Shown piece by piece: positions 39,142-55,024 of a stretch of 64,000 nt of DNA (positions are counted from its first letter, which is position 1; every line of letters starts with the position of its first letter). The notes below the pieces were generated by a model. It saw nothing but the letters and a program-made list of their open reading frames with translations. It made no database searches and was not told the origin of the DNA. The DNA lies in assembly GCF_023634845.1 (NCBI RefSeq), contig NZ_JAMLJL010000001.1, forward strand, positions 310,001-374,000, in the 5' to 3' direction. The translations under genes and the position numbers were made by a program. The DNA is from Flavobacterium amniphilum (GTDB taxonomy: Bacteria; Bacteroidota; Bacteroidia; Flavobacteriales; Flavobacteriaceae).

Positions 39142-39239
39142 CAGGGCAAAGGTAAATATTCATTTGAAAACTTTTTCATTCAAAAAAAGTAATACCAAAC
39201 TTTAAATTTTTATTTTCGTAGCACAAAAAAATGGAAATT

Positions 39240-39845
39240 ATGAAAAAAATAGTACTTGGAGTGTTGGTAATTTTTATGTCAACGACAGTTTCTGCACAAA
39301 AGAAGGAAGCTATCTATAAGAAGTTAGCTGAAAAATCTTGTGATTGCGCGATGAAAAAAGGTGCTCCGAATATTGGAGAAGCAGAATTAGGACTTTGTTT
39401 GTTTGAAGCTATCAATACATTGGATGCCAAAGAAATGAAAGTACTTGGTGTCAATAAGGATAACATCATGGAGTCACTTGAAACTATTGCCGAGCCTATC
39501 GGAATCCAAATGGCATTGACCTGTCCAAAGGTTTTTGAAGGAATGATGGCCAAAGATGAAGCCGCTTTGCAAAATGGCGGAGCTGCTAAAGAAACATTTA
39601 CGAATTCAGGTGTTGTTGAAGGACTGACTGTTAATGAATTCAAGAGTATTAAGATAAAAGATGCCAGTAATACGGTTCAGGAGTTTATCTGGTTAACCCA
39701 ATTTGAAGGAGATTCTTTATTGATCAACGGAAAAGTGGTGAAAGGAGACAAGATTGAAGTTGTTTTTACCGAAGAGCAATTTTTTGATGCCAAGACCAAT
39801 GCTTACAAGGCTTTTAATATTATCAAGTCTATAAAATTATTATAA
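39240..39845 (+). CDS. Secreted protein of unknown function
   Basis: 201 residues from the ATG at 39240, giving a signal peptide (MKKIVLGVLVIFMSTTVSAQ); three codons more are possible upstream. The first half has CDCAMKKGAPN and a CPKVFEG segment, so up to four cysteines may form disulfides in the periplasm. I do not recognise a domain. It ends in a perfect palindromic terminator. Confidence 0.7.
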   Translation: MKKIVLGVLVIFMSTTVSAQKKEAIYKKLAEKSCDCAMKKGAPNIGEAELGLCLFEAINTLDAKEMKVLGVNKDNIMESLETIAEPIGIQMALTCPKVFEGMMAKDEAALQNGGAAKETFTNSGVVEGLTVNEFKSIKIKDASNTVQEFIWLTQFEGDSLLINGKVVKGDKIEVVFTEEQFFDAKTNAYKAFNIIKSIKLL

Positions 39846-39875
39846 AAATAAGAGGTTCATATGAACCTCTTATTT
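39846..39875. terminator. Perfect 30-bp palindromic terminator
   Basis: AAATAAGAGGTTCAT followed by its exact complement ATGAACCTCTTATTT, then T-rich sequence. It serves the convergent secreted-protein and patatin genes and overlaps the patatin stop. Confidence 0.88.
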
Positions 39876-40910: not shown

Positions 40911-40912
40911 GT

Positions 40913-41233
40913 TTAAATTCGTATGAGAATTGTTTTCAGTATGATTTTCAAGATACTGTTCTGCAATTCGTTTATTTTAGTTTGATTGAGTCCGGCATCT
41001 TTCAATACCTGGAGTGTTATTAATTCCCTCTGGCTGATGACCAGCCATTCCACCTCATCCAGAGAGAGCATTCCTTCCTGGTACAAAATGTGCCATTTAT
41101 TTAGTTTTTCATCGGAAAGTTTTAAATAATTATTGATTTCTTCTTCAATTTTTGGAGGAAAAGTTAGATGATTTTCATCAAATAGCGCAATAATATTTGT
41201 TTTAATTTCGGAAATAAAAGGAGGTGTCTGCAT
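40913..41233 (-). CDS. Small helical protein of unknown function
   Basis: 106 residues, predicted all-helical, with no membrane segment or signal peptide and no motif I recognise. It lies two bases from the patatin gene and three from the lipoprotein gene, so its expression is tied to theirs. Confidence 0.7.
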   Translation of the reverse strand: MQTPPFISEIKTNIIALFDENHLTFPPKIEEEINNYLKLSDEKLNKWHILYQEGMLSLDEVEWLVISQRELITLQVLKDAGLNQTKINELQNSILKIILKTILIRI

Positions 41234-41236
41234 GGC

Positions 41237-41650
41237 TTATTTTTGTTTAGCGGTTTCGAGAATGATGATTTGGTCAAAGGCTTCATTGAATTGTTTCGCT
41301 GATTCTCCGGCAAAGGAAGGATTCAGTTTGTTGTTTTGTTTCCAGAGCGAAAGGAACTTCGGAAGTAATGTTTGTTCGTTTCCGGCGATTTTGGACCACA
41401 TCATGACCGTGACTTCATTATTTGGTTTGTTCTTTTCATAGTCAAGATGCGAGTTGAGTTCGTTGATCAGGAGATTCGCTTCTTCCTGATGATTTGTGTA
41501 AGCGTTTGTGGAAAGTAAAGCCAAAGTATTTGTCTTTGCTTTCAGTTCGATGGCTTTTTGATGTGAGTAACTGTCATAGGTTGTGATTTTAATTACCTGA
41601 CAAGACGTTAGCAGTAAAAATACCGCAGTGAATTTGAATAGTGTTTTCAT
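41237..41650 (-). CDS. Small lipoprotein of unknown function
   Basis: 137 residues. The N-terminus MKTLFKFTAVFLLLTSC ends in a lipobox cysteine. The mature part is helical (KAIELKAKTNTLALLSTNAY; ANLLINELNSHLDYEKNKPN) with no family I can name. It is in the middle of the patatin-M15 unit. Confidence 0.75.
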   Translation of the reverse strand: MKTLFKFTAVFLLLTSCQVIKITTYDSYSHQKAIELKAKTNTLALLSTNAYTNHQEEANLLINELNSHLDYEKNKPNNEVTVMMWSKIAGNEQTLLPKFLSLWKQNNKLNPSFAGESAKQFNEAFDQIIILETAKQK

Positions 41651-41665
41651 GGTATGATTTTTTTC

Positions 41666-42142
41666 TTATAATTGTATATAGCCTGTTTTACCGATGGGGT
41701 GTTTTTTTAACACCCTCCAATCGGAATAACCCTTCTTTTCGAAGTGCGAAAGATCTTTGAATGTTTTCCAGTTTCCTCCCCAGATCCAACCGTGGGAAGC
41801 GAATATCCGGACACATTCGTACCAGTCGGCGATTTGATCATTGTCCCAGTCTTTAGCCGTATCCCAGGAAGCTTCCTTACCGTTGATGATTAGGCAGATG
41901 TCGACTGCGAGTCCGTAATTATGAACGGATTGGCCGCCTTTTGCATTGGTAACTTTCTTTCCCGGTTTTGTTCTTCCCAAGGTATAAAGTGCATCCTGTT
42001 CTTTGAATGTGCGGAGACCTTCGGTGACGCGAACCTGTGCTTTTCCCGTAAGCTCATGGTTGCATTTTGAGATGATTTTGGTTACTTCATCCCTTACGGA
42101 AGGATGAAGTTTTGCGATTCGTTCTGTAGTGTATTTGTCCAT
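41666..42142 (-). CDS. M15 family peptidase (endolysin-like)
   Basis: 158 residues from the ATG at 42142. The metal-binding residues are in GGQSVHNYGLAVDICLI (His and Asp, near residue 75) and LSHFEKKGY (His, near 140), with the opening VRVTEGLRTFKEQDALYTLG. This matches the VanY/L-alanyl-D-glutamate peptidase group that includes phage endolysins. There is no signal peptide, which fits an endolysin or an effector delivered by another route. It starts the four-gene unit. Confidence 0.88.
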   Translation of the reverse strand: MDKYTTERIAKLHPSVRDEVTKIISKCNHELTGKAQVRVTEGLRTFKEQDALYTLGRTKPGKKVTNAKGGQSVHNYGLAVDICLIINGKEASWDTAKDWDNDQIADWYECVRIFASHGWIWGGNWKTFKDLSHFEKKGYSDWRVLKKHPIGKTGYIQL

Positions 42143-42235
42143 TTTCTTCGTATTGTTTGTATGGTACAAATATACAAGAAAATAATCTTAATTGCAAGTA
42201 ATTATTGGATTATATTCATCTATTAAGTGAATTAA

Positions 42236-42300
42236 TTCTTAGTAATGAGTGATTAGTGACGAGTAATTAGTGATTAGCTCTTAGCCCATAGTGCTTAGTG
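42236..42300. repeat. Low-complexity GTGATTAGT-type direct repeats
   Basis: Imperfect copies of AATGAGTGATTAGTGACG and AATTAGTGATTAG. Related sequence is seen at 19926-19967 before the TenI-like gene and at 21838-21875 before thiC. Confidence 0.6.
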
Positions 42301-42318
42301 GGCTCATATTTAAAAATA

Positions 42319-42595
42319 TAGCTTCCACAATAAAATATATTGGCTCCACAATAGTTTATAGAGGCTCCACAATAGATGATATTCATTCTGCAATAGTTCA
42401 TAGAGGCTCCACAATAGATGATATTGGTTCTGCAATAGTTCATGGAGGCTCCACAATAGACGATATTCATTCTGCAATAGTTCATAGAGGCTCCACAATA
42501 GATGATATTGGTTCTGCAATAGTTTACAGAGGCTCCACAATAGATGATATTGGCTCCACAATAGTTCATAGAGGCTCCACAATAGTTGATATTTA
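42319..42595. repeat. Tandem array of 13 units of 21 bp
   Basis: Each unit is an 11-base core, CTCCACAATAG or TTCTGCAATAG, plus a 10-base spacer (ATGATATTGG/CA type or TTCATAGAGG type). The two core-spacer combinations mostly alternate, giving a 42-bp higher-order period. All units keep exactly 21 bp. Because 21 is divisible by three, frames stay open on both strands, but start codons and composition do not support a real protein. Confidence 0.92.
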
Positions 42596-42692
42596 CTTTT
42601 TACTATTTTGTTTTTGTAAAGTAAATGGTTTAATTACAGTGTTTTATGCGTAAATTTATGATTCGTTTTTGTTTCACTTAATTTTTTGCATC

Positions 42693-42989
42693 ATGTTTAT
42701 AGTCCGGGAAATTTTTTATTTGCAGTTTGGCCGTTTCAAAGATGCCAAAGCCTTAGTGGATGAAGCCACTAAAACAGGATTGATCACATTGCCTTCAGGC
42801 GGAAGAGTCCTTACCGATTTTACTGGGGAAGGGTATCGTTTTATACTGGAAATGCCTTATGAAACGCTGGCGGCTTTCGAAACCGATCTGACAAAGGAAA
42901 TGAGCGCAACGGCCTGGAAGGATTGGTATGAAAAATTCAAACCGCTGGTACGGCATTCGGAACGGGAGATTTTGAAGCAGATATCCTGA
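42693..42989 (+). CDS. Small protein with NIPSNAP-like appearance, unknown
   Basis: 98 residues from the ATG at 42693 (MFIVREIFYLQFGRFKDAKA). The pattern of a first strand, a helix, a strand with GYRFILEMPYE and a helix ending in a Trp-rich WKDWYEKF resembles dimeric alpha-beta barrel (NIPSNAP/ABM) proteins. The function is not known. It is alone on the plus strand between the 21-bp array and the toxin region. Confidence 0.65.
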   Translation: MFIVREIFYLQFGRFKDAKALVDEATKTGLITLPSGGRVLTDFTGEGYRFILEMPYETLAAFETDLTKEMSATAWKDWYEKFKPLVRHSEREILKQIS

Positions 42990-43029
42990 TATAAAAACCC
43001 TGCAATTGATGTTGAAGGTTTTTTTTTCT

Positions 43030-43140
43030 TTATGGGCACGTATTCCTACGGCAGTTCGGCTAAAGCCTCGTGTGCAAATCCGCGCTATCTGGTTCTTCGT
43101 CAGTTCGATTAAAACCGCGTATCAAATCCGCGCTATTGGG
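43030..43140. repeat. Two GC-rich palindromic repeat copies
   Basis: Two adjacent copies (about 43033-43084 and 43085-43140) share CAGTTCG-GCTAAAGCC/GATTAAAACC followed by CAAATCCGCGCTAT. A third, partly inverted copy lies at 43733-43792. Together they bracket the orphan toxin-tip/immunity pair. The unit reads like imperfect hairpins. Confidence 0.75.
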
Positions 43141-43553
43141 TTTGTGTTAAAATTGTGATAATCATTATCTGGAAATAGATTTATGTCTTCTTTTGTGAAT
43201 AAATACCAACCATCTGCTTGTATTTCAACATTGCAAACAATAATTTCTGAATGAATTTTTAAAAATTCTTTTAAAAATGGGATAGTTAGAATGTCGTCTG
43301 ACCAACAAGAGATCATTCCATTAATGCTATATCCGTCTTTTAGATCACCAATGAGTTTTTTGTATTCATCAGTAGTTGTGCTATGTAGATAAATGGTTTT
43401 GTAAGAGCCATCATTTTCCTGAACTGAGGCAGTGACTGTATCTTTATCCCTGCCTTCAATAAGATTGAGTGTTTTTATGGTTTTTAGAAAAGAATCGTTT
43501 AGTTCTTTTTTTTCTATAAAGTGATTAGATAATAGATAAACTGCATATTTCAT
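43122..43553 (-). CDS. Putative immunity protein of the orphan toxin tip
   Basis: 143 residues, acidic and without signal peptide or membrane segment. I recognise no family. Its ATG overlaps the stop of the preceding toxin-tip frame (TAATG), the arrangement seen between polymorphic toxin C-termini and their immunity genes, and the pair lies between repeats. I infer an immunity role from context only. Its end runs into the second GC-rich repeat copy. Confidence 0.65.
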   Translation of the reverse strand: MKYAVYLLSNHFIEKKELNDSFLKTIKTLNLIEGRDKDTVTASVQENDGSYKTIYLHSTTTDEYKKLIGDLKDGYSINGMISCWSDDILTIPFLKEFLKIHSEIIVCNVEIQADGWYLFTKEDINLFPDNDYHNFNTNPIARI

Positions 43554-43747
43554 TATTTTAATTTTTTTAATTGTTTATAATCTGATAATATTGTTACCCC
43601 CATTTCTTTTATTTCTTGAAAAATTGGGTTTGTTTTTTCTAAGCCATCAGTTAGCTCTTCAAAAACTAAAATTACTTTTTTATTGCTTACATTGATATAT
43701 TCGGGATTAAGAGGATTAGTATACCTTCTAACCCCGATAGCGCGGAT
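43553..43747 (-). pseudogene. Orphan toxin C-terminal fragment
   Basis: An open frame of about 64 codons with no start codon. It reads GVRRYTNPLNPEYINVSNKK, then VILVFEELTDGLEKTNP, and ends QLKKLK just where the immunity-like gene begins. It begins inside the GC-rich repeat at about 43736, with an in-frame stop at 43748-43750. This looks like the last part of a toxin module cut off from its delivery protein. The toxin family is not identified. Confidence 0.6.
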
Positions 43748-43792
43748 TTACTTCGTCAGTTCGCTTCGCTCGTGTGCAATCCGTGCTGAAAG
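43733..43792. repeat. Third GC-rich palindromic repeat copy
   Basis: GATAGCGCGGATTTACTTCG, then CAGTTCG and CTCGTGTGCAATCCGTGCT. The outer AGCGCGGATT and AATCCGTGCT can pair. Its left part is the inverse of the copies at 43030-43140. Confidence 0.75.
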
Positions 43793-43827
43793 AGGTAAAC
43801 AAATCTAATAAAATTGCTTTTTAAAAA

Positions 43828-43858
43828 TAAAACCACAACGGTATTGTTGTGGTTTAAA
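43828..43858 (-). terminator. Terminator hairpin of the immunity-toxin unit
   Basis: Stem AAACCACAAC/GTTGTGGTTT (43830-43839 with 43846-43855). Read leftward it is followed by a T-rich tract. Confidence 0.75.
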
Positions 43859-43874
43859 ATCAATATTATGTTTT

Positions 43875-43904
43875 TAAGCACGAGCGTCCTACTCTCGCCA
43901 ACAG
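43875..43904 (-). pseudogene. Possible 3' fragment of a 5S rRNA gene
   Basis: On the minus strand GGCGAGAGTAGGACG followed by CTCGTGCTT resembles the 3' arm of bacterial 5S rRNA (the GCGAGAGTAGG loop-E strand and helix I). No other part of a 5S gene is present. It is immediately followed by the terminator at 43828-43858. The match is by recall of the consensus and needs a search. Confidence 0.35.
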
Positions 43905-43906
43905 GT

Positions 43907-44329
43907 TTATTCTTCTTCTGTAATACTTAAATAAAGGGGTTTGTTTTCCTCTAAACATTCTTCACAAACTTGATAAGCTTTAAATAGTTTATTGATTACG
44001 TTATCTTGTAAATTTTCTCCAACAATATTTAACTTTATTTCTTTACCCAAGAAAATGATTGTTGGTCTTCCATGTTGTTCAGATTTCCTATCTATTAAAA
44101 GTTCATTTATTTTATTTTCAAGCATTTCTTTTAATAATAAAATTTGTTCTTTTGATAAAAGAAAATCTTTTATGGGTAGATTATCTAATTTTTCTTTGAA
44201 AAAATCTAGTCCAAAACCTTCAGTGAAGCCAATGTCCTCCCAACTTGAAGCTTTAAATGTTTCATTTTTAATCCACTCATCAGCAGATTTATCATAATAT
44301 GGGGTATTGCTTGTTAATAGTTTTTTCAT
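43907..44329 (-). CDS. Putative immunity protein for the 877-aa toxin
   Basis: 140 residues, acidic, no signal peptide, no family I recognise. It starts two bases after the stop of the 877-residue protein and shares that protein's AT-rich 3' composition. Position and size fit a cognate immunity gene. Its C-terminus (CEECLEENKPLYLSITEEE) is strongly acidic. Confidence 0.65.
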   Translation of the reverse strand: MKKLLTSNTPYYDKSADEWIKNETFKASSWEDIGFTEGFGLDFFKEKLDNLPIKDFLLSKEQILLLKEMLENKINELLIDRKSEQHGRPTIIFLGKEIKLNIVGENLQDNVINKLFKAYQVCEECLEENKPLYLSITEEE

Positions 44330-44331
44330 CT

Positions 44332-46965
44332 TTATTTTTTTATATAATTTAACATTATTTCGTCCCTTGTTATATTTAGAGGATTAAATCTAACTCGAAT
44401 ATATCCATTTTTTTTTGCCCATTTTCCTGAAAAAGTTTCAAAAGCAGCCTCTTCGTAGGTCATTTTTTTAATATCAACAGCATCCCAAAATTGATTTAAA
44501 AGTAATGATTTTCCTCCATAATCAGAATAGGATTCAGATTTTTGCCAAATATCCAATGTTCCATCTGGATTTCCGTATTTTTTATTTCTGTTAAAATATG
44601 CCAGAGCATCATCTAACATTATTTCACCTAAACCTGAAAGCTTATCCGTTATAGATTTCGGAATGTTGAAATCTGCATAAAGTAGATTTTCTCCTTTTTC
44701 TATTGGAAGGCGTCTGATTTTTCCAAATGATTCATCTAATAATGAGATTGAGCAATTGATTTCTTCTTCGTTGACACCTCTTGAGAGCTTATAAATTAAT
44801 TTTTTTCTATCTGGCACTCTGGACAGCTTTCCAACTCTATTTCCAAATTCATCTATTAGAGTGAAATACATTTTAACGCCTTTAGTTGGAGGAAGTCCTG
44901 AGGTGTTCACATCCTCAATTCTAATTTTCTTTCTTCTATTTAGTATGTTTTCACAAACTTCTTCAAAACGTTTCTCATTAGATAAATTTTTAATCAAATC
45001 TTTAGCAGCTTTTCCAAAATTTTGTGGCTTTGCCTGAACAATCGCTTCTCCTTTATAGATTAAGGCTACCTGTTCTTCTATCTTGTCACCTGTTTGAACA
45101 TCACCACTCACTAAAATTACACTTTTTTTGAAAAGTTCATCCACTTTAAATTTGTCTAAGTTTCCACCCGTTGCCAAAACAATTTCAGAATTATCCCGTA
45201 ATGCTTTAACGGTATTTTGGGTAAAACCGGAAATATTCACTTCCAAAAAAGCTTTTAACAGCATTGCCCGAGTAAAGTTGATGTAATTGTAATTTTTTAC
45301 TTTTACAGCAAGTTTTATGACACCATTTGCTGTTCTGTATAAGGATTGGACAAGCTGCGGTGCACTTACTATAGCCGTTGCCATCCCGCCAATCAAATAG
45401 ATTTTCTCCCAGGTTTCCAGTAATTCTTTTCCTTCTTTAGTTTTTTCAAGCTCTTCAACAACCGTTTGAACGGCTATGTCTGTAGTGGCTAAACCAATAT
45501 CGGCAATGGCCAGTGCAAGGGCGCCAGGGTTTGCTGTTGTGTAAAGCACTATTATTCCCCCAATCACAGCAAGTATGTCAAACCCGATGCGGATCATTTT
45601 TTCGACTTCGATCCACTCGTCCTGATCAGACAAGGCTTTGATGTAAATGGCAGGTACGAGAAGTGTTTCTTTGTCTTTGCCGTTGCGTATTTCGAGCGTG
45701 ACCAAATCCAATGAATGGTACATGGCGCCATCATCTATTTCTTCAGTTTCGGTATGTGCTGTTTCAACATCTTCTCCCGTGCCGATGCTAACTCCATTGT
45801 CATCGTCTATTACGTTTGGTGAAGTGGTATAATAAGTTGTTTTTTTCAGTTGCTGCAGATAGAACTCATCGTCTTTTTCATCGGAAAATAATGCTGTGAG
45901 GTCTCCGTTGAACTTATAGCCATTGCCATAAATAAACTTCTTGTCCCGTTTGTCTTTGGCACCATAAAATTTATCCTGGACCATGATCGCATTCAATAAT
46001 GAAGCAAACAGCATTTTGTTTTCGATAAGCTGATTTTCAATTACCGAACTTCCATCAAGGCTTTTATAAATGCTTTTAAGCAAAACGTCTTCAGAGAGTA
46101 GGATTTGTAATGCACTTGGGAATTTTGTGAGTAACTCCAACGCTTTGATTAATACTCCGCTTTCGTCATTGAAAATGCCAAAGAAGCCACTGTTGTTGTC
46201 ATATTCAGCCAATAACTTCATGTGATTGAATATTGTATCCATTTGTAACCTGCCGCCATTAAGGAAACTCAAGTTTGAAGGCAATTGTTGATAAAGGAAG
46301 ACCAATGCTTCTATTTGTTTTGTGCTTTCCAGAAGTGACTGGAATTTCATTTTTAAATGGTTTAAGAAATAATCTTGCTTTAAAAACTTCAACATTGCGA
46401 TGAAGTCATTTACGTTTTCAGTTTTAATAATTACTGCGCTGTATTTTTCCTCAAGAGTGTAATCATTTGATATTTCAGGAGTGCCGCTAAAGTCTCTTAT
46501 ATCAAGAGCATCTTTATAGATGAATTCAATTGCGTAGTATGCTTTTTTTTGAACCGGATCGATGTGGATTGTCATTCCCGGTTTTTTAAAAGAAACGTGA
46601 CAGGCTCTTTTGTTCAGTTTGACATCTAAGTTAGCCGCTTTTTCTTTGTTGGTTTTTTCATCGATGTAGGTGAAAGGAACACTTGGCTTAAATTCAACTC
46701 TTCCGTTCAACTTCCCTATAATTGTGTCATTGCCGTGATAAAATGGTCCTTCTCCTCCCAATACTTTTATGGGTAGGTTACGGGTGTATTTTTGATAATG
46801 ATAGAAGACATCATTTGAATCAAGATTATTCCTGATGTCTTCCAGTAGAAGTTTAACATTCAAAGCTTCTTTATGAAAGTCATTTGTATGTGAGAGGCAT
46901 TTGGTTTCCTCTCCATATAGACTATCATATGAAATCTCATCAAAAGATTTATAATTTGTACTCAT
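44332..46965 (-). CDS. Putative polymorphic toxin, 877 aa
   Basis: The first 450 residues are mainly soluble and unassigned; an internal hydrophobic region (about 460-560: FDILAVIGGIIVLYTTANPG; YLIGGMATAIVSAPQLVQSL) looks like the membrane-inserting or pretoxin segment of large secreted toxins. From about residue 660 the DNA becomes more AT-rich and the protein basic; the end (WAKKNGYIRVRFNPLNITRD) reads like a nuclease- or RNase-type tip, but I see no diagnostic catalytic motif. There is no N-terminal signal peptide. A small acidic gene follows within two bases. It lies 54 bases after the 1223-residue gene. Toxin status is inference from architecture and context. Confidence 0.6.
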   Translation of the reverse strand: MSTNYKSFDEISYDSLYGEETKCLSHTNDFHKEALNVKLLLEDIRNNLDSNDVFYHYQKYTRNLPIKVLGGEGPFYHGNDTIIGKLNGRVEFKPSVPFTYIDEKTNKEKAANLDVKLNKRACHVSFKKPGMTIHIDPVQKKAYYAIEFIYKDALDIRDFSGTPEISNDYTLEEKYSAVIIKTENVNDFIAMLKFLKQDYFLNHLKMKFQSLLESTKQIEALVFLYQQLPSNLSFLNGGRLQMDTIFNHMKLLAEYDNNSGFFGIFNDESGVLIKALELLTKFPSALQILLSEDVLLKSIYKSLDGSSVIENQLIENKMLFASLLNAIMVQDKFYGAKDKRDKKFIYGNGYKFNGDLTALFSDEKDDEFYLQQLKKTTYYTTSPNVIDDDNGVSIGTGEDVETAHTETEEIDDGAMYHSLDLVTLEIRNGKDKETLLVPAIYIKALSDQDEWIEVEKMIRIGFDILAVIGGIIVLYTTANPGALALAIADIGLATTDIAVQTVVEELEKTKEGKELLETWEKIYLIGGMATAIVSAPQLVQSLYRTANGVIKLAVKVKNYNYINFTRAMLLKAFLEVNISGFTQNTVKALRDNSEIVLATGGNLDKFKVDELFKKSVILVSGDVQTGDKIEEQVALIYKGEAIVQAKPQNFGKAAKDLIKNLSNEKRFEEVCENILNRRKKIRIEDVNTSGLPPTKGVKMYFTLIDEFGNRVGKLSRVPDRKKLIYKLSRGVNEEEINCSISLLDESFGKIRRLPIEKGENLLYADFNIPKSITDKLSGLGEIMLDDALAYFNRNKKYGNPDGTLDIWQKSESYSDYGGKSLLLNQFWDAVDIKKMTYEEAAFETFSGKWAKKNGYIRVRFNPLNITRDEIMLNYIKK

Positions 46966-46977
46966 AATTCATGTTTT

Positions 46978-47006
46978 AAAAACCCCTGCGATAAACAGGG
47001 GTTTAA
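46978..47006 (-). terminator. Hairpin after the 1223-aa gene
   Basis: Stem AAACCCCTG/CAGGGGTTT (46980-46988 with 46996-47004). A related stem is found after the 1233-aa gene. The T-run is modest, so read-through into the toxin gene is possible. Confidence 0.7.
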
Positions 47007-47019
47007 GGTTATACATTTG

Positions 47020-50000
47020 TTAGGATTCCACCGGAGGGTTTTCATCTCCCGGTTCCGGAATGATAGAAGTTCCTTCATCATCGCCTTCCTGATCTTCGGA
47101 ATTGTCCAATCCCTTTAATGTTACATTGCTGTACATTTTTAACGGATTAGTGGATACTTGTTTTCCGTTTTCATCGAGTACGGGTTGTCCGTCAGAATCG
47201 AAAAGCTTGTAATCGGCACAATCTTCATCGCAAGGCAGGGCTTGTTCCACTTCAAGACCGATACTTCCGGCCTGGATAATCGTTAAGGAAGTTGGCACAC
47301 GGCTTTCCCATGTTTCTTCCACTTCACCTTCCGTTTCACGCAATTCTTCGACAATTGATAGGAACATCGGGTCATCCATGGTAGGTACCTGTCCGCCGTT
47401 CCAGACCTGACCGGTAGCCATGTACCAGTTTACGGCTTCTTCAAACCCCGGACGTACAGTCACGATTATTCTTGCCATTCCGCTTTGAAGGAAAGCACGG
47501 AAGGTTGGATCATCTGTTTCAGATACATTGTACAATTCTGCCCAGTTTTTTCTTTCGCCCCAATAGAATGGATAGAACATATAGCTCATTAAATTCCATT
47601 CGAATGCCTGTTCAAAGAATTTTACTTTGGCTGCATATTTTTCCAACTCTTTTTCGTCATATAAAGCATGAATATCCTGGAGACTGTTACCTGTTAAAAA
47701 GGATGTATAGCCCAGTTTGTTGTGGCTTAGCATGTATTCGATGCAGTTTTTACGTAATACCGTATTTTCAATCTGACGGAAGAAAAGCGGATTGGTTTTG
47801 ACCTTTTGTTCTACCATAGCTTTTTGTTCTGCCAGTTTTGCATTGTATTCTGCCAGCTTTTCTTCATACGCACTGATGATTGCATTGAAAGTCTGTGATT
47901 TCCATTGATTTCTAGCTTCGTCTGTAAGCGCACATTCCACACTGATGTTTACATTACCAACATGATAGTTATAATAATACACAGAGACCGGCACTTCATT
48001 TCTATAATTCGCTATGTCTTCGTAAACCTGATATGGATTAAGAATTCCTCTTAATCTTCCACTTGATGAAATATACTTGTCTCCAAAGAGCACTGCAATT
48101 CCGTGTGGCTGGCTTCCATCGGTATCTTCATGACCTCCAACCAGAGCTTTGGCTCTTTTCGCATAATAACGTTCGTCAATTTTTATGATATCTGTTTTTG
48201 TAGCACTTTCATGTGTTGTGCCTGTTTTTTCAATTGCAATTGATTTTCCCGCATAGATTATTTCAGCAGGCATACTTTCAATTTCAACATTGAGTGCACT
48301 GGCCCAGTAATTTGAATTGTCGGCATTAACTTTTTTATAGTTGGTTAATTCAAATTCACCTTTTGCAGTTCTTGGATCGACTGGTTTCAATAACACTTCC
48401 ATTCCCGGGTCTGTTTTTTTCAATGTTGTTGCCTGGCTATGGAAGGAAGCTGGTTGAGGAATCATGAATTCATACATCAGACGCTTGCCATAGTTGACGA
48501 TTTTATTGCGGTAAATTTTATCAACCCAGCGGTATACACCCGAAACATGGTTCGCGTTTTTGCGGTTGTCAAATCCGTGTTTGCTGTTTTCTTCGAATTC
48601 TTCGATGATTTTCGAAACACGTTCTTCTTTTATTTTTTGAACAACACGGTCCAAGACTCTTTCTGAAATGTCTTTCGCATGTGTTACTGCCTGCAGATCT
48701 GATTCTTCAGATGATGTATTGTATGCAAATTCAGAACCTACTGAGCCACTTATTCCGGCTTGCTGGTTTGACCAATTTTGTTGACCATGCATGCCGTAAG
48801 AAGTTTGGGCGCTCAATATCGAGTTTACTTCCTGATTCATCTCAAAACGGTCTGTTGAGGTGGTATCGGTTAGTTTTTCAGATTCTTTTTCAGAGCTGGT
48901 TGTGAGTGTGTTTTCAGAACGGCGTAAACGACGGGTTGACTTTTCTTTGTATTCGCTGGCCATCACATTTTCGATATGGGATACTTCACCTGGGACATAG
49001 CAGCAAATTTCCTGTTCTACCTTACGGTAATCTGCTATTCCTGTTCGTTTTACACCAAAGCCGCTTGGAATATAGTCAATCACACTACCGTCTTCAGATT
49101 GGTTTGCAAACTGTTCATAATCTATGGGGTTGAAGAGATCTTTCATTGGAACGTTTTTGTAGGTACCGTTTCCTTTAATGATGTACGTTACTTGGCCATC
49201 TGATATAGTGTTTTCACCAACCTTGAATTTTTCTGATTTTTTCCATGCATTTCCTTCAAAATTGATTTGTCTTCCGTTATCCAATGTTAAGGAGCCTCTA
49301 ATGTTAAGTTCTGGTCTGTCGGTTAGGTCAAGTCCTTCGTTGTATATTTTGACACATAGTTTATTGTTTTCAATTGATTGTGTATAATCTACTCCGTTTA
49401 CTTCTGTGTCATCATCATAGAGTACCCTGTATTTTGCCCATACAATATTTGCGTCTTGGAAGCTATCTCCAAAAACAAGTGTCAAGGGGTCCGGGTTGTT
49501 AGTGTGTACGGCTCCAATGGTGAAGAAATTTACTTCAGACGTTGTGTTTTCCTGAGGCAATACAATTCCTCCTGAACTGAATACCTCTTCCACGGCTGGC
49601 GTAGTCTCGGATATTATTGTTGTTGCAATTGCTATTTGATTATCATAGTATGCAATTAGCTCGTCGAAAGTCTCAAGAGTATTTTCCTCAGCAATGACCA
49701 TTATGGCGTCAAGGTTATCTGCGTTTATTTTGTCGCTTGCAGCAGTAGAAGTTAATTCTGCTGGTTTTTCAAATTCGAATTTTGGAACTTCCAAATCGCT
49801 GTATTCAATATAGCTTCTCTCAACACCGGTATCGGTTTCTGTATAGGCCTTTATTTCTTTTGTTGCATTGGAATATGCTTCTTCGATATCTTCCTCATAG
49901 GTTTTTTTTGCATTGTCTAATTCAAGTTTGTAATTTTTATTGTAAGTTGATTTAGCCTTTTTCAATTGAGCGATAACATCTCTGAAATACTTGATTTTAT

Positions 50001-50691
50001 CCTTACCCAGTACTGAATAAAGTTGTTTGTCAAGTTTTTCTGTTTTGATTCTTAATGACTTAGTGAATATTTTGAGCATTTCTTTTTTAGCTGAGGTGTC
50101 TTCTTTTTCAAACAGCTCCTTTGGGATTATTACACGGGCCAGAGCCAGCTCTTTCACCAGTTCATCTGTTGGAGTTGGATAATCAGCAAGTATGTTCAGG
50201 AAGTTGTTTGCAACAAGAATGGAGAGAATAGCATCCCTTACTTCACCTGATTTGTATGTAATGATTTGATAGAAAAGGTTTTCCCATAATTGGTTCAAAC
50301 TTTCATTACTTTCCCTCAAAACTCCCATAGGGATACTGCCACCGTTATATTGGCTTAATTTTTCGGCGGTTATGCTATTGCGATTGGCAGTTAACCAAAC
50401 AGCAAAATCATAATTTGCTTTATAAACTGGTCCAGTTGTTGTATATAAGTCTTCTCTTTTTTTGATAGCACTTAGTGCAAAAGTAGCCGCTGCATCTGTT
50501 AAGCTTTTAGCTTTAGTTTTACCAATTGCGATGTTAGTTGCGGCTTCGAAGAAGACATTGTGAATTGGATCAACACCAACTGTTAGGTCTGGATAAGCTA
50601 CAAATGATTTTTCAATTTTATCCTCATGGATTAATTCTGGAGCTCGCATGGTTACGAACTTGAATAACGTGTTTTTAATTTCTGTACTCAT
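47020..50691 (-). CDS. Giant protein of unrecognised family, copy A (1223 aa)
   Basis: A very large cytoplasmic-type protein without signal peptide or membrane helix. The N-terminal 330 residues include coiled-coil stretches; the centre (about 545-745) has YIPSGFGVKRTGIADYRKVE, CCYVPGEVSHIENVMASEYK and NANHVSGVYRWVDKIYRNK; the C-terminal third has NPLFFRQIENTVLRKNCIEY, then FRAFLQSGMARIIVTVRPGF and a CDEDC motif. These blocks are shared with copy B, while residues about 760-900 are quite different. I do not know the function. It is part of a 4-kb duplication with its own promoter. Confidence 0.85.
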   Translation of the reverse strand: MSTEIKNTLFKFVTMRAPELIHEDKIEKSFVAYPDLTVGVDPIHNVFFEAATNIAIGKTKAKSLTDAAATFALSAIKKREDLYTTTGPVYKANYDFAVWLTANRNSITAEKLSQYNGGSIPMGVLRESNESLNQLWENLFYQIITYKSGEVRDAILSILVANNFLNILADYPTPTDELVKELALARVIIPKELFEKEDTSAKKEMLKIFTKSLRIKTEKLDKQLYSVLGKDKIKYFRDVIAQLKKAKSTYNKNYKLELDNAKKTYEEDIEEAYSNATKEIKAYTETDTGVERSYIEYSDLEVPKFEFEKPAELTSTAASDKINADNLDAIMVIAEENTLETFDELIAYYDNQIAIATTIISETTPAVEEVFSSGGIVLPQENTTSEVNFFTIGAVHTNNPDPLTLVFGDSFQDANIVWAKYRVLYDDDTEVNGVDYTQSIENNKLCVKIYNEGLDLTDRPELNIRGSLTLDNGRQINFEGNAWKKSEKFKVGENTISDGQVTYIIKGNGTYKNVPMKDLFNPIDYEQFANQSEDGSVIDYIPSGFGVKRTGIADYRKVEQEICCYVPGEVSHIENVMASEYKEKSTRRLRRSENTLTTSSEKESEKLTDTTSTDRFEMNQEVNSILSAQTSYGMHGQQNWSNQQAGISGSVGSEFAYNTSSEESDLQAVTHAKDISERVLDRVVQKIKEERVSKIIEEFEENSKHGFDNRKNANHVSGVYRWVDKIYRNKIVNYGKRLMYEFMIPQPASFHSQATTLKKTDPGMEVLLKPVDPRTAKGEFELTNYKKVNADNSNYWASALNVEIESMPAEIIYAGKSIAIEKTGTTHESATKTDIIKIDERYYAKRAKALVGGHEDTDGSQPHGIAVLFGDKYISSSGRLRGILNPYQVYEDIANYRNEVPVSVYYYNYHVGNVNISVECALTDEARNQWKSQTFNAIISAYEEKLAEYNAKLAEQKAMVEQKVKTNPLFFRQIENTVLRKNCIEYMLSHNKLGYTSFLTGNSLQDIHALYDEKELEKYAAKVKFFEQAFEWNLMSYMFYPFYWGERKNWAELYNVSETDDPTFRAFLQSGMARIIVTVRPGFEEAVNWYMATGQVWNGGQVPTMDDPMFLSIVEELRETEGEVEETWESRVPTSLTIIQAGSIGLEVEQALPCDEDCADYKLFDSDGQPVLDENGKQVSTNPLKMYSNVTLKGLDNSEDQEGDDEGTSIIPEPGDENPPVES

Positions 50692-50752
50692 GTTTTTATT
50701 TTTTTATTTTTTAACTGAATGTTTTGATGCGTTGCGCGGTTGCATCAATATG

Positions 50753-50766
50753 AAGAATATATTCTT
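50753..50766. promoter_or_regulatory. Perfect 14-bp palindrome in the leader of giant copy A
   Basis: AAGAATATATTCTT is an exact palindrome in the 5' leader, about 60 bases from the ATG. It also occurs at 54830-54843 before copy B. It may be an operator or an RNA hairpin. Confidence 0.7.
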
Positions 50767-50796
50767 GTAAAATTGCCTTTCGGAATAATTACAATG

Positions 50797-50828
50797 CAAA
50801 TATATAAGATTATTATCTAATAAGCAAA
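50797..50828 (-). promoter_or_regulatory. Promoter of giant copy A
   Basis: On the minus strand TTTG (50825-50828), 20 bases, then TATATTTG (50797-50804) fits the Bacteroidota -33/-7 promoter closely. The leader to the ATG is about 100 bases. Confidence 0.75.
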
Positions 50829-50886
50829 TATAATGAAGAAAAAAATCATTCAAAAGATGAAATTTTTCTTCTTTTTGGGTTTTGTA

Positions 50887-50920
50887 AGAAATAAGTCTTT
50901 TGTATAGAGAGAATGGTTGT
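50887..50920. repeat. Relic of the repressor-side promoter region
   Basis: AGAAATAAGTCTTTTGTATA here parallels AGAAATAAAGCTTGTATATA at 54964, at the same 4077-base offset as the palindromes. The similarity fades after about 50915. No repressor gene follows here. Confidence 0.65.
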
Positions 50921-51025
50921 GTGTTTTGTTTTGGACTGAAGAAAAGGCATGAGGTGATTTGTGAAACTTGAACTATTATCAGTAGTTTGTCAGGAATATT
51001 TTAAAGCTTTTGATTGTGAGTAATA

Positions 51026-51056
51026 AAAAACCCCTGCGTTTCAGGCAGGGGTTTCA
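51026..51056 (-). terminator. Terminator after the 1233-aa gene
   Basis: Stem AAACCCCTGC/GCAGGGGTTT (51028-51037 with 51045-51054) followed leftward by TTTTTTATTA. Confidence 0.85.
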
Positions 51057-51069
51057 GGTTATTTATTTG

Positions 51070-54000
51070 TTACGATTCTCCTGAAGGAGTATTGTCCCCG
51101 GGATTAGGAATAATAGGGTTGTCCCCGTTTTCATTATCATCGGTATTGTCCAATCCCTGTAGCTTTACATTGTTGTACAGTTTTAAAGGGTTTGTTGATA
51201 CCTGTTTGCCATTTTCGTCCAATACCGGTTGACCGTCAGAATCGAAAAGCTTGTAATCTGCACAGTCTTCGTCGCATGGTAAAGCCTGTACGACTTCCAG
51301 GCCAACACTTCCGGCCTGGATGATGGTTAACGAAGTAGGGACGCGGGTTTCCCATGTTTCTTCCACTTCACCTTCTGTCTCGCGTAATTCATCAACAATG
51401 GAAACAAATAACGGGTCGTCAATAGTGGGTACCTGACCTCCATTCCAGATTTGTCCTGTGGTCATATACCAGTTTACCGCTTCTTCAAAACCGGGCCTAG
51501 CGGTTACAATTACCCTTGCCATACCACTTTGCAGGAACGCACGGAAAATTGGGTCGTCAGATTCTGTTTCGTTGTACAGTTCTGACCATTTTTCTTTGCT
51601 TGCCCAGTAGAACGGATAAAAGTTATAACTCATCAGGCTCCATTCGAAAGCCTGCTCGAAGAACTTTACTTTTGCAGCATATTCTTCAAGTTTCGGATCG
51701 TCATAAGCAATACTGAAGTCCTTCACTGTGTTGAATTTTAGCAACTTAAGTGTGTCATCTCCAACAGCTTCATGACTTGCGAGATATTCGATACAGTTTT
51801 TACGTAAAACGGTATTTTCAATCTGACGGAAGAACATTGGATTAGTTCTGATTTTTTCTTGTTGCATTGCTTTGATTTCAGCCATTTTTGCGTTGTATTC
51901 GGCTAACTTATCTTCATATGCTTGGATGATTGTATTGAAAGTTTCAATTTGCCATTGTTGTTTTGCCTCTTTTGTTAAGCTGCATTTTGCTACAAAATCA
52001 TAGTTGAACAAACCAATGTCCCATCCGGTTAACAGCATGGTAAGTTTCTTGGTAATGTTGTAATCAAATGTACTGAAATCAATGTGCTTCCATTCGGTCT
52101 GATGACCAATGTATTCGATTTTTGTTCCAATCTGGATTGAGGCTCCCATGCTGTTCCATGTGGCTGAATGACTACCGTTTTTCAGGCGGATGGTTCCTTT
52201 TAAGGAATCGACTTTGTAATTTTCCGGTATTTCAATTTCCAGTGAGCTGATTTTTGTCCATCGGCCGTCGTTTTCCCATTGGAAATCTGCTTTTACTTTT
52301 GAAACATCAATTGTTGTTGGGTATTTCTCAACGGCAGCGTTGTATAAGGATGCCCAATGTGTGTAATTTGTTTCGGTTAATTTTGAAAAGTCAGGAATTG
52401 CCAGTAGTGGATTGCTGAACGTTCTTGGGTCAACGGGTTTGATTAGTTTTTCAAAGCCGGTAGCATCTTTCTTTTCAGACTGTGCCAGTTTATGAAACAT
52501 TGCGGGTTGTGGAATCATGAATTCATACATTAGACGCTTACCGTAATTCATCACTTTGTTTCGGTATATTTTATCAACCCAACGGTAAACACCCGAAACA
52601 TGATTGGCATTTTTACGATTGTCGTAACCATGTTTGTTGTTTTCTTCAAACTCTTCAATGATTTTTGAAACACGTTCTTCTTTTATCTTCTGAACGACAC
52701 GGTCCAAAGCTCTTTCGGTCACATCTTTTGCATGTGTAACTGCTTGATTGTTTGATTCCTCTGATGAGGTATTGTAAGCAAAGTCACCTGAAACGCTAAG
52801 CTTATATGCGCCATCTGCCCATGACGAATCGAACGATGCTTGGGCGCCTACATGCATATCCTCTGTTAATACCGAGCTAACTTCCTGGTTCATCTCAAAA
52901 CGGTCAGTTGTTGTCGAATCAGTAAGCTTTTCAATTTCCTTTTCATTACTTGTTGTGGTAGTGTTTTCAGTGCGTCTCATTCTGCGGGTCGCCTTTTCTT
53001 TATATTCACTTGCCATTACGTTTTCAATATGCGAAACTTCACCCGGGACATAACAACATACTTCCTGTTCTACTTTTCGGTAATCTGCGATACCTAACCT
53101 TTTGATTCCGTGTCCTGATGGAATATAAGTGATTACATTGCCATCGGTACTTTGTGTAGATCCCTGGTTGTCTTCTGGTAGATTACCTTCAGGATCCAAC
53201 TCAATCATTTTTATTTGGTATGTACCTTTTCCTCTTAACATCATTGTGGGGATTGTGCTGTCTGTAAGTGCAATTTTGCCTACGGTAAAAGGGGATTCTG
53301 TGATTGAAATTTCTCCGGCAAATGCGATTGTTCTTCCGTCATGAAGCATTAATTTGCCTTCGATAGACATATTTGACACATCGAAAAGATTCAGGCCTTC
53401 CCGGAAAATTTTTACAGATAACTTATTGCTAATCATGGCATCTGCATACGTAGTTCCGGTTTTTATTGTGTTATCTGGGAAAATCAATTTGTATTGTGCA
53501 CTTACAACATCAAATCCTTGTTGAGCATTGTCAAACAACAATGTCAGTTGGGTTTTAGTGTTTGTTGTGGCATAGGTTGAACCTATGGTAAAAATATTAC
53601 CAAGAGATGAATTTGCGGTCGGAAGGAAAACATCACCGACATTAGTTATTGTTTGTGTCAGATTTGTGTTTTCGAAAACTGCCTGTGTAGCAGTTTTTAC
53701 CAATTTCTGATAATGACTGATAACATCACCGAACGTTTCATACCCATTTGATGTGATTGTGTCTGTGATTTGTGAATTTAAATCTGATGCAGTTGTTTTA
53801 TTGATTGTATCAGTATAAACCGCTAATTCTTTTGGTCTCTCATATTCAAAAGGAGGAATTTCAAGATTTGTATATTCTTTGATAGTTCTTACGAACTTTG
53901 TAACAGGATCAGTCATCGTTTTTTCCTTGAAATCCGCTTCTTCGTATAAGTTGGCTACTTCTTGATCATATGTGCTTCTTGCGTCATCATATTGACTTTT

Positions 54001-54771
54001 ATTAAGTTGTCTGTACTGAATTTCTGTTTGTTTTAGCTCTGCAATAATAGAGTTATAAGTTTCAATTTTGTCCTCACAAAGTATTAAATCCATTTCTTTG
54101 TCAAGCATTTTTGTGTTTAGCGGAACATTGGATAAAGCTGTTTTTAAAGCTTCTTTTTTTGCTGAAGTATCCTCTTTTTCGAAGAGAACTTTAGGGATGA
54201 TCACTCTTGCTTGAGCTAACTTCCTTACATCTTCAAGAGTCAAGCTTGCTGTGGTTGAATAATTTCTCAGAAAGAAGTTTGCAACAAGAACGGAAAGGAT
54301 TGCATCACGCAGATAACTGGATTTGAAAGTGATGATTTGGTAAAAAAGGTTTTCCCATAAAGTGTTTAAGATTTCAGGATTTTCAATTGGAGTTAATGAT
54401 TCTAATGGAAAATCAGCGTTCGTAATTCGTATGTCTACATCGGTTTTTTTTAGCCTTGTACGGTTTGCGGTCAACCATACTGCAAAATCATAAAATTCTT
54501 TCGAAACGTATTCTGCTAAGTATAGGTTTTCCTTTGTTTTAATTGCATTCTGTGTGAAACCGTTGGCTGCATCTGCCAATGCTTTTGCTTTAGTTTTTCC
54601 GGATGGAACATTTTCTGCAATTTCTAAAAATACATTGGTTAACGGGCTTCCTTCCGTGCTTAGAAGATTTGGATAATTAACAAAAGATTTTACTACCTGG
54701 TCTTTTTCCAATACTTCAGGTGTTCTCATTGTAACAAATCGAAACAATGTGTTTTTAATTTCTGTACTCAT
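51070..54771 (-). CDS. Giant protein of unrecognised family, copy B (1233 aa)
   Basis: Paralogue of copy A with the same block order: MSTEIKNTLFRFVTMRTPEV at the start, LWENLFYQIITFKSSYLRDA (near 135), CCYVPGEVSHIENVMASEYK in the centre, NANHVSGVYRWVDKIYRNK, then NPMFFRQIENTVLRKNCIEY and the final CDEDCADYKLFDSDGQPVLD. The region of about 780-930 differs from copy A. No signal peptide, transmembrane helix or enzyme motif is seen. A CI/LexA-type repressor gene is divergent from it across 253 bases. I do not recognise the family. Confidence 0.85.
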   Translation of the reverse strand: MSTEIKNTLFRFVTMRTPEVLEKDQVVKSFVNYPNLLSTEGSPLTNVFLEIAENVPSGKTKAKALADAANGFTQNAIKTKENLYLAEYVSKEFYDFAVWLTANRTRLKKTDVDIRITNADFPLESLTPIENPEILNTLWENLFYQIITFKSSYLRDAILSVLVANFFLRNYSTTASLTLEDVRKLAQARVIIPKVLFEKEDTSAKKEALKTALSNVPLNTKMLDKEMDLILCEDKIETYNSIIAELKQTEIQYRQLNKSQYDDARSTYDQEVANLYEEADFKEKTMTDPVTKFVRTIKEYTNLEIPPFEYERPKELAVYTDTINKTTASDLNSQITDTITSNGYETFGDVISHYQKLVKTATQAVFENTNLTQTITNVGDVFLPTANSSLGNIFTIGSTYATTNTKTQLTLLFDNAQQGFDVVSAQYKLIFPDNTIKTGTTYADAMISNKLSVKIFREGLNLFDVSNMSIEGKLMLHDGRTIAFAGEISITESPFTVGKIALTDSTIPTMMLRGKGTYQIKMIELDPEGNLPEDNQGSTQSTDGNVITYIPSGHGIKRLGIADYRKVEQEVCCYVPGEVSHIENVMASEYKEKATRRMRRTENTTTTSNEKEIEKLTDSTTTDRFEMNQEVSSVLTEDMHVGAQASFDSSWADGAYKLSVSGDFAYNTSSEESNNQAVTHAKDVTERALDRVVQKIKEERVSKIIEEFEENNKHGYDNRKNANHVSGVYRWVDKIYRNKVMNYGKRLMYEFMIPQPAMFHKLAQSEKKDATGFEKLIKPVDPRTFSNPLLAIPDFSKLTETNYTHWASLYNAAVEKYPTTIDVSKVKADFQWENDGRWTKISSLEIEIPENYKVDSLKGTIRLKNGSHSATWNSMGASIQIGTKIEYIGHQTEWKHIDFSTFDYNITKKLTMLLTGWDIGLFNYDFVAKCSLTKEAKQQWQIETFNTIIQAYEDKLAEYNAKMAEIKAMQQEKIRTNPMFFRQIENTVLRKNCIEYLASHEAVGDDTLKLLKFNTVKDFSIAYDDPKLEEYAAKVKFFEQAFEWSLMSYNFYPFYWASKEKWSELYNETESDDPIFRAFLQSGMARVIVTARPGFEEAVNWYMTTGQIWNGGQVPTIDDPLFVSIVDELRETEGEVEETWETRVPTSLTIIQAGSVGLEVVQALPCDEDCADYKLFDSDGQPVLDENGKQVSTNPLKLYNNVKLQGLDNTDDNENGDNPIIPNPGDNTPSGES

Positions 54772-54829
54772 AAAGTTTTTATTTTTTAAATGTTATTGTA
54801 TTGATGAGTTGCGCGGCTACATCAAAGTG

Positions 54830-54843
54830 AAGAATATATTCTT
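54830..54843. promoter_or_regulatory. Perfect 14-bp palindrome in the leader of giant copy B
   Basis: AAGAATATATTCTT again, with GTTGCGCGGCTACATCAA next to it as in copy A. It lies between the giant's ATG and its promoter, downstream of the predicted start. Confidence 0.7.
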
Positions 54844-54872
54844 GTAAAAATGCTTTCTGAATAATTACAATA

Positions 54873-54904
54873 CAAATATATAAGAATATAATCTAATAAA
54901 CAAA
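54873..54904 (-). promoter_or_regulatory. Promoter of giant copy B
   Basis: TTTG (54901-54904), 20 bases, TATATTTG (54873-54880) on the minus strand; identical layout to copy A. Confidence 0.75.
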
Positions 54905-54996
54905 TAAAATGAAGAAAAAAATCAAATAAAAGAAGAAATAATTCTCAAATAATTAATTTTATTAGAAATAAAGCTTGTATATAAAGAAAATATTCA

Positions 54997-55004
54997 TACT
55001 TTTG
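54997..55004 (+). promoter_or_regulatory. Probable -7 box (TACTTTTG) of the S24 repressor gene
   Basis: TACTTTTG fits TAnnTTTG, with a TTG at 54975-54977 at about the right distance for a -33 element. Confidence 0.55.
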
Positions 55005-55024
55005 GCCTTATTAAATTGATTATC

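Follow-up and report, generated by a model that had tools for sequence, protein, structure and literature searches.

Two giant proteins, gA and gB, are encoded in tandem in a 64,000-nt stretch of the Flavobacterium amniphilum genome (contig NZ_JAMLJL010000001.1, positions 310,001 to 374,000; hereafter the window, in whose numbering coordinates are given) and are probably receptor-binding, possibly pore-forming carriers, the delivery components of an interbacterial polymorphic-toxin system. We are rather confident that the giant is the delivery partner of a toxin, and consider it evenly balanced whether it works by a beta-barrel pore. The giants recur with a large partner protein that has interchangeable ends and matched next genes; they exchange a predicted jelly-roll domain, enzymes encoded nearby retain intact catalytic motifs, and few giants or partners have hydrophobic N termini. 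The giants are a carrier candidate of no catalogued family, within a conflict system of a known type. The locus architecture is solid, and the mechanism is a reasoned guess.

A first-pass annotation, made from the letters of the window alone, had pointed to two giant paralogues upstream of toxin-immunity genes. Both open reading frames (ORFs) were confirmed, on the minus strand, with 1223 (gA) and 1233 (gB) aa and 52.8% identity, and the placement upstream of toxin-immunity genes was right, as such cassettes recur. The neighbourhoods of relatives, whose listing the annotation had proposed, share a toxin-immunity theme in Bacteroidota. The probable carrier role in a polymorphic-toxin system and the core shared across phyla had escaped it.

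Toxin partners and immunity genes

Genes were called as the longest ORFs without overlap, from 70 aa upwards, and loci were compared within an 83-locus set (the window, L016, L023–L102 and L104), which is mostly Flavobacteriales because it consists of the 79 best-matching of 493 confirmed relatives plus four other loci. Short loci (L001–L015), distant loci (L017–L022) and L103 (on the contig of L022) were excluded from counts of partners and of M15 and patatin genes; loci clipped by contig ends were kept, and 7 of the 83 have less than 3 kb after the giant.

Read along the minus strand from 54771 down to 39870, the window encodes gB, gA, an 877-aa protein, 140-aa and 143-aa ORFs, an M15 endopeptidase, 137-aa and 106-aa proteins and a patatin (Table 1). 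The pairing of a giant with a large protein is recurrent: in 74 of the 83 Bacteroidota loci, one of the four same-strand ORFs that follow the giant encodes a partner of at least 550 aa. When 61 selected partners were scanned against Pfam (E up to 0.01), their ends matched Tox-MPTase4 (6 partners), EndoU (3), WHH, Gln_amidase and Colicin-DNase (2 each) and, in one partner each, YwqJ deaminase, ADPrib_exo_Tox, ART, Ntox28, CdiA_C_tRNase and Toxin-deaminase. The corresponding scan of 129 of 323 small ORFs returned SMI1_KNR4 (14), SUKH_6 (11), SUKH_5 (9; these counts may overlap), SUKH-3 (4), Imm35 (4) and Imm22 (1), and a few of the 129 matched toxin domains.

Toxin ends and next genes were matched across 65 loci (2080 pairs, 2000 permutations). 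Of the 78 pairs with similar toxin ends, 39 also had similar first downstream ORFs; of the 435 pairs alike only in the front, none did. Four further pairs shared that ORF with neither end nor front similar, and no permutation (0/2000) reached 39. Judged by this sequence comparison, a putative cognate immunity gene lies directly 3′ of the toxin and co-varies with the toxin end, and the interchangeable ends with their matched downstream genes mark the giant-toxin loci of Bacteroidota as polymorphic toxin loci. The window's own toxin end and 140-aa ORF co-vary with those of L077, L097 and L098; L025 has the end without the ORF. Orphan toxin-end cassettes also occur, as a 306-aa ORF in L077 and a 118-aa ORF in L079 resemble the 877-aa toxin in its end part alone. 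Internal hydrophobic segments like those of the 877-aa protein are present in 57 of 74 partners.

Some loci encode a further protein between giant and toxin. One of 91–138 aa (cluster c5; 21 loci, e.g. L003, L048, L056, L061, L064 and L066) is found in Chryseobacterium, Kordia and other loci, is absent from the window and is a candidate adaptor; another of about 520 aa (cluster c34) occurs in L006, L063, L077, L091, L102 and L104.

Predicted anatomy and family of the giants

Identity between gA and gB varies by segment (gB numbering): 45% over 1–370, 36% over 373–521, 77% over 551–760, 14% over 825–932 and 74% over 940–1160. An AlphaFold2 (AF2) prediction with 82 homologues, the set also used for the alternation and cysteine alignments, reached a predicted local distance difference test score (pLDDT) of 70.7 for gB 1–1195 and 72.1 for gB 541–1172. 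It draws a helical N terminus with a long helix at 221–278, a strand-rich region at 373–521, an arm (551–760) of very long strands around a hairpin at 642–663, a jelly-roll at 819–933 and then a conserved block with long helices. The first-pass annotation had described unrelated middles around residues 760–930; a divergent stretch does exist there, and it is narrower, at gB 819–933.

This predicted jelly-roll is exchanged between giants as a domain. Across 218 pairs with core identities of 0.8–0.9, jelly-roll identity averaged 0.28 and ranged from 0.09 to 0.90; L076 and L084 combine 0.89 core identity with 0.09 in the jelly-roll, and L042 and L078 show the reverse (0.57 and 0.65). Because core and jelly-roll identities diverge both ways in these pairs, the jelly-roll is swapped as a module and does not merely drift. 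BcsB domains align with its model at Z 9.7 (rmsd 2.8 Å, 111 aligned), and jelly-rolls of viral capsids, TNF-like lectins and domains of phage fibres at Z 7–9. The variable middle had earlier been read as a sign of diversifying target recognition: the variable block stands, as an exchanged predicted jelly-roll in proteins linked to toxins, and we infer the recognition itself, in which the jelly-roll would bind a receptor on the target cell. Structure prediction and structure searches of gB and the core, as had been proposed, gave a good alignment for the jelly-roll only; no aerolysin-type or MACPF row was listed for giant or core, which excludes nothing.

Within the conserved arm, hydrophobic and polar residues alternate along both strands of the candidate hairpin (1.00 at gB 640–650 and 0.86 at 655–665, against 0.37 and 0.36 in shuffles; 82 relatives), with pooled z-scores that are overstated because the 82 sequences are related. 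Thr, Ser and charged residues abound in the segments on either side. The hairpin resembles the tip of a beta-barrel pore, and we give the formation of a pore the same weight as its absence. In gA, the hairpin (residues 631–656; 48724–48801) is more polar and less regular than in gB, a sequence difference by which the two giants may perhaps be non-equivalent.

C993 is the sole invariant cysteine among the 82 homologues. C573, C1166 and C1170 are all present in 63 of 82, all three are missing in 17, and 2 have C1170 as the only one of the three; of the conserved CCY and CDEDC cysteines remarked on earlier, one CCY Cys and the CxxxC pair thus hold for a majority and are not universal.

The earlier description of the family as undescribed fits, as no family model exceeded its cut-off. 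Pfam gave sub-threshold matches only (best PF22227, 22.8 bits against a cut-off of 26), NCBIfam nothing over cut-off (one irrelevant weak row for gA, E 0.56), PADLOC no match to a giant up to E 0.01, PHROGs weak rows of unknown function (best phrog_28458 for gB, E 9.7e-4, 19.3 bits), and PDB sequences no match to gB and a best E of 0.22, not significant, for the giant-family profile. In searches of open-licence PMC full texts, none of the titles and abstract openings listed describes the family. The sub-threshold PF22227 (DNA_pol3_gamma_R_C) match lies in the conserved arm of both giants (gA 681–743, 48463–48651; gB 690–752, 52516–52704), and that Pfam family could perhaps contain their distant relatives. 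As also claimed earlier, neither signal peptide nor transmembrane helix is apparent: a hydropathy scan, made with no signal-peptide predictor, shows no hydrophobic segment in gA or gB. Of 109 giant ORFs, counted with fragments and duplicates, 2 have a hydrophobic N terminus, as does one partner out of 74.

Giants were found in 6 of 100 genomes taken from genus to order level and in 16 of 395 Bacteroidota genomes (the window's own genome, G000, included in each), at no fewer than 493 confirmed places in species genomes, and in 14 plasmid records, including Tsukamurella, Streptomyces, Nonomuraea, Sinorhizobium, Ensifer, Cupriavidus, Aulosira and the haloarchaeon Natronorubrum. The core common to phyla (about gB 540–1160, ~600 aa) spans Bacteroidota, Actinomycetota, Pseudomonadota, Cyanobacteriota and one haloarchaeon. 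Flavobacterium humi, the best named relative among the matches listed, likewise has two tandem giants, an arrangement confined to it and the window among the loci examined. A phage origin of the giants was tried and set aside: 50,697 phage records gave no tblastn match, and three giant loci lie on viral contigs (L102 and L104 show a Chryseobacterium-type gene order).

Possible release genes and the insertion site

M15 and patatin genes occur together in 20 of the 83 loci, always within three genes of each other, with patatin alone in three loci and M15 alone in one; flanks extend at most ~10 kb except in the window, so a missing M15 or patatin is missing from the examined stretch only. The patatin lies on the giant's strand in 23 of 23 cases (upstream in 17, downstream in 6), and in Natronorubrum a patatin follows the giant. 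Catalytic motifs are intact in 23 of 23 patatins, and the M15 motifs SxHxxGxAxD and HFE, which we take to be zinc ligands, in 20 and 18 of 21 M15 proteins. The M15 protein is, judging by its motifs and hydropathy, a peptidoglycan endopeptidase without a signal peptide, as in a lysis cassette; as for spanins, the window shows only the lipoprotein-like 137-aa protein, of no assigned role, and one Phage_holin_4_1 match was found among the 129 small ORFs, in another locus. Release by patatin/M15 lysis is a tentative proposal, to which we give somewhat less than even weight. Among 60 related genomes, strong patatin matches were found in the giant-bearing G000, G064 and G077 and in G066, where no giant was found; G063 has a weak match, and G009 has a giant but no patatin.

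The window's patatin matches PADLOC model PDLC00758 ('Effector, Phospholipase'), and we take the phospholipase effector models that it matched to be of the CapV type of the cyclic oligonucleotide-based antiphage signalling system (CBASS). The eight other cassette proteins were scanned without a PADLOC match, so there is no cyclase among them, and with no CD-NTase cyclase in these eight the window cassette does not appear to be CBASS.

In a giant-less genome of the same genus (G024), the RNase P gene and an S24 gene lie ~95 bp apart, so the entire segment between them is additional in the window. Gene order in G024 runs from the RNase P gene to S24, M1 peptidase and subtilase without interruption, and in Kordia the S24 gene is several genes away from the giant; being present in the former and distant from the giant in the latter, S24 is a resident beside the insertion site. 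SOS control by S24 as part of the cassette was ruled out on these two observations. The gene is directly upstream of and divergent from the giant in 23 of 31 loci holding both. The window copy (55016–55723) keeps GDSM and the A-G site, presumably the cleavage site; the Kordia/Aquimarina type lacks the GDSM pattern. S24 may regulate the adjacent giant promoter, a possibility raised by the 14-bp palindrome that precedes both giants (Table 1).

Each giant seems, from its upstream DNA, to have its own promoter: the non-coding stretches upstream of gA (50699–50869) and gB (54776–54945) are 80–87% alike, and the palindrome found upstream of both is exact in L024 and L025, while L026 and L067 retain the central 10 bp, which makes 6 of 90 upstream regions overall. 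Three ORFs of 100–120 aa, two on the plus and one on the minus strand, separate the 143-aa ORF from the M15 gene; two of the three fall within a minisatellite (42282–42617; 42-bp units of 2 x 21, 6.4 copies, 88% match) that is open on both strands and is probably not a gene. A 20-bp inverted repeat (90% complementary; 43124–43143 and 43730–43749), with a third, direct copy at 43075, surrounds the 143-aa ORF and is possibly a REP-like element.

Table 1. Features of the giant-toxin locus, in window coordinates
Feature	Position	Strand	Basis
gB, giant carrier candidate, 1233 aa	51070..54771	-	ORF, family alignments, AF2 model of residues 1-1195
Highly conserved arm with putative pore hairpin, gB 551-760; long predicted strands, low confidence	52492..53121	-	entropy profile, secondary structure
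Candidate membrane-spanning amphipathic beta-hairpin, gB 640-665	52777..52854	-	alternation test; individual tests mixed
Hypervariable predicted jelly-roll, gB 819-933; candidate receptor-binding domain	51973..52317	-	variability profile, AF2, structure alignment
gA, tandem paralogue of gB, 1223 aa, adjoins toxin gene	47020..50691	-	ORF, 52.8% identity to gB
gA version of jelly-roll, residues 809-923, 14% identity to that of gB	47923..48267	-	
877-aa polymorphic toxin protein; front ~1-670 common to relatives, end ~670-877 variable	44332..46965	-	no Pfam match
Hydrophobic segments, residues 457-499 of the 877-aa protein	45469..45597	-	hydropathy
140-aa candidate cognate immunity protein	43907..44329	-	relatives after same toxin end in L077, L097, L098; no Pfam match
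143-aa small ORF, possibly orphan immunity gene	43122..43553	-	position only; no Pfam match above cut-off
M15 endopeptidase (endolysin-like), SxHxxGxAxD and HFE motifs, no N-terminal hydrophobic segment	41666..42169	-	Pfam Peptidase_M15_4, E 5.6e-19
137-aa lipoprotein-like protein beside M15; N-terminal hydrophobic stretch, lipobox-like Cys	41237..41650	-	relatives in L029, L042, L052
106-aa protein travelling with lipoprotein and patatin	40913..41233	-	L029, L042, L052
Patatin phospholipase, intact catalytic motifs	39870..40910	-	Pfam, 4.4e-27; PADLOC PDLC00758, E 9.9e-63
Stretch absent from G024, including an unrelated-looking 204-aa ORF (39231-39845)	39142..55015	.	
14-bp palindrome, candidate operator, ~75 bp upstream of gA	50753..50766	.	
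Identical 14-bp palindrome, ~72 bp upstream of gB	54830..54843	.	

Mechanism, alternatives and known systems

In the mechanism we propose, giant and toxin protein would be made in the cytoplasm without signal peptides. Where M15 and patatin are present, the patatin would open the producer's inner membrane in a holin's place and the endopeptidase would cut its wall, and a fraction of the population would lyse, freeing giant and toxin. The exchanged jelly-roll would bind a surface structure of the target cell, the conserved arm would make a beta-barrel pore with the hairpin (640–665) as its tip, and the toxin protein would dock via its conserved front, its C-terminal enzyme entering through or with the pore; the small downstream protein would protect sister cells. 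We infer receptor binding, pore formation, docking and release by lysis from the features described above.

Several observations weigh against this proposal. Hairpin alternation is not unique, as the top arm window is 570–580 and windows starting at 617–621 also score high, and beta moments elsewhere are equally large; tested singly, the alternation reached p < 0.05 in 4 of 14 diverse members (gB 0.02; gA 0.46). AF2 performs poorly at the proposed pore (block pLDDT 37–55 over 581–730, predicted TM-score 0.49–0.50), and parts of 687–747 appear helical by hydrophobic moment where AF2 has strand. Foldseek lists the binary-toxin components CDTb and iota Ib with weak scores (E 8.7e-4 to 1.9e-2, TM at most 0.18) and below its top rows, which are a Cry protein in one search and the lambda tail fibre for the core, and the Z of 9.7 for the jelly-roll is only modestly over the tool's background of 7–8 without a clear match. 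A recognized toxin end is present in at most 21 of the 61 partners (none for the window's own, the other rows being mostly unspecific), and the majority of the 129 small ORFs have no immunity-family match. Co-evolution of giant and toxin is weak (rho at most 0.18), and that of giant segments with the toxin front is too weak to indicate a docking site. In other phyla, an ORF of 360–750 aa follows the giant in the cases examined; these ORFs are mutually dissimilar, except for two near-identical Sinorhizobium copies, and those scanned yielded no toxin domain, so the toxin link is established for Bacteroidota only. As to release, 59 of the 83 loci have neither M15 nor patatin, the M15-patatin pair of G064 is on a different contig from its giant, the giant locus of G088 has neither gene in 17 kb, and no holin was found by Pfam among ten window proteins scanned.

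Four alternatives were considered. In one, the giant acts alone as a pore-forming bacteriocin, equipped with a receptor-binding domain of its own, and the toxin is a separate weapon sharing locus and release; this would suit the weak co-evolution, the lack of direct evidence of giant-toxin interaction and the distant giants, which precede mutually non-homologous ORFs without recognized toxin domains. We nevertheless find it unlikely, since 74 of 83 loci, in varied chromosomal surroundings, have the large partner within four same-strand ORFs and 73 of 74 partners have no hydrophobic N terminus for export of their own. The missing N-terminal hydrophobicity and the long helical N-terminal region of the giant could suit a scaffold or chaperone that keeps the toxin inside the cell until release, with the jelly-roll binding the toxin's variable parts rather than target cells. 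Jelly-roll identity, however, is uncorrelated with the toxin end (rho -0.005) and correlates with the toxin front at 0.046, the weakest of the tested segments, and the fold is like that of surface and carbohydrate-binding domains, although sharing a fold is no proof of function; we judge storage quite improbable.

An adaptor, tip or fibre of a contractile injection system (extracellular or type VI secretion system, T6SS), with the toxin as cargo, would agree with the similar jelly-rolls of phage fibres, with the lambda tail fibre as top Foldseek row for the core, and with a sheath gene in the window's genome (G000:C1:145969-146328, PF04984 over cut-off, ~215 kb away); G064 also has two sheath matches below cut-off, and the 48 recurrent neighbour clusters include one with a phage Tail Collar match. 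That protein, by motif, is however a Kordia cluster several kb from the giant, and no sheath is among the 25 of 72 Pfam families listed for the 48 clusters. The first-pass annotation had looked to phage tails or contractile systems as informative company for the giants, and the genomes do not support such a link: when the sheath models PF04984 and PF05943 were searched in six giant-bearing genomes, four (G009, G055, G077 and G088) had no match, although divergent Bacteroidetes T6SS may escape these models. We consider this explanation very unlikely. Least credible to us, with only the slightest chance, is that an insertion hotspot has collected unrelated genes that form no functional unit. S24 did prove to be a resident, and part of the M15/patatin linkage may be one too, but giant, partner and small ORFs recur together in Flavobacterium, Kordia, Aquimarina, Chryseobacterium, Chitinophagaceae and a plasmid while the flanks differ.

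Taken as carriers, the giants can be set beside several known systems. Part of the account by Zhang et al. (2012; PMC3482391) sets out polymorphic toxins as having a conserved front, exchangeable C-terminal toxins, and SUKH and other immunity proteins. Partners of the window's type share with that account the layout of front and end, the toxin catalogue and SUKH immunity; they differ from it in having no Pfam trafficking domain in the front and in the pairing of the toxin with a separate giant protein. TANFOR toxins, as passages of PMC7073777 describe them, are Bacteroidetes polymorphic toxins with an N-terminal TANFOR domain, a downstream immunity gene and a link to proteins secreted by the type IX secretion system; host group and downstream gene are alike here, and the partner scans returned no TANFOR row, the presence of a TANFOR model in those libraries being unchecked.

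The carrier-plus-enzyme logic is that of binary AB toxins such as CDTb and iota Ib, several entries of which are among the weak Foldseek rows; anthrax protective antigen is another pore-forming B component. Any likeness of the pore domain to binary toxins comes with low TM and low pLDDT, and the giants differ in having no Pfam row (up to E 1) or PDB sequence match to them and in targets presumed bacterial because immunity genes are present. Tc toxins are large receptor-binding, pore-forming carriers with enzyme cargo; no TcA, TcB or RHS Pfam family was found in gA and gB, nine other, mostly distant giants or 61 partners. Passages of PMC10847048 describe a type X secretion system in which a large Tc toxin leaves the cell by holin-endolysin-spanin lysis. 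Where that release uses a holin, the window has a patatin beside the endopeptidase, and the patatin would be the holin's replacement.

It has yet to be explained how polymorphic toxins lacking a recognized export signal get to their victim cells. Short of an even chance, in our estimate, the giants are a new class of pore-forming translocators, with a core common to bacteria and a haloarchaeon, that deliver Bacteroidota polymorphic toxins, a counterpart of binary and Tc toxins directed against bacteria; that tentative reading also holds a swappable jelly-roll and swappable enzymes and, in some lineages, phospholipase-endopeptidase lysis with patatin in the place of a holin. Finding the core in four bacterial phyla and a haloarchaeon points to a carrier that has a long history or has been transferred widely. 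Because most scanned partner ends, the window's included, match no toxin domain, these loci offer new families of toxins and immunity proteins. If the proposal is true, a diffusible carrier with an exchangeable target-binding domain and enzyme would be a modular protein antibiotic, its delivery would become testable in Flavobacterium and Chryseobacterium, and jelly-roll swaps would predict target range from sequence.

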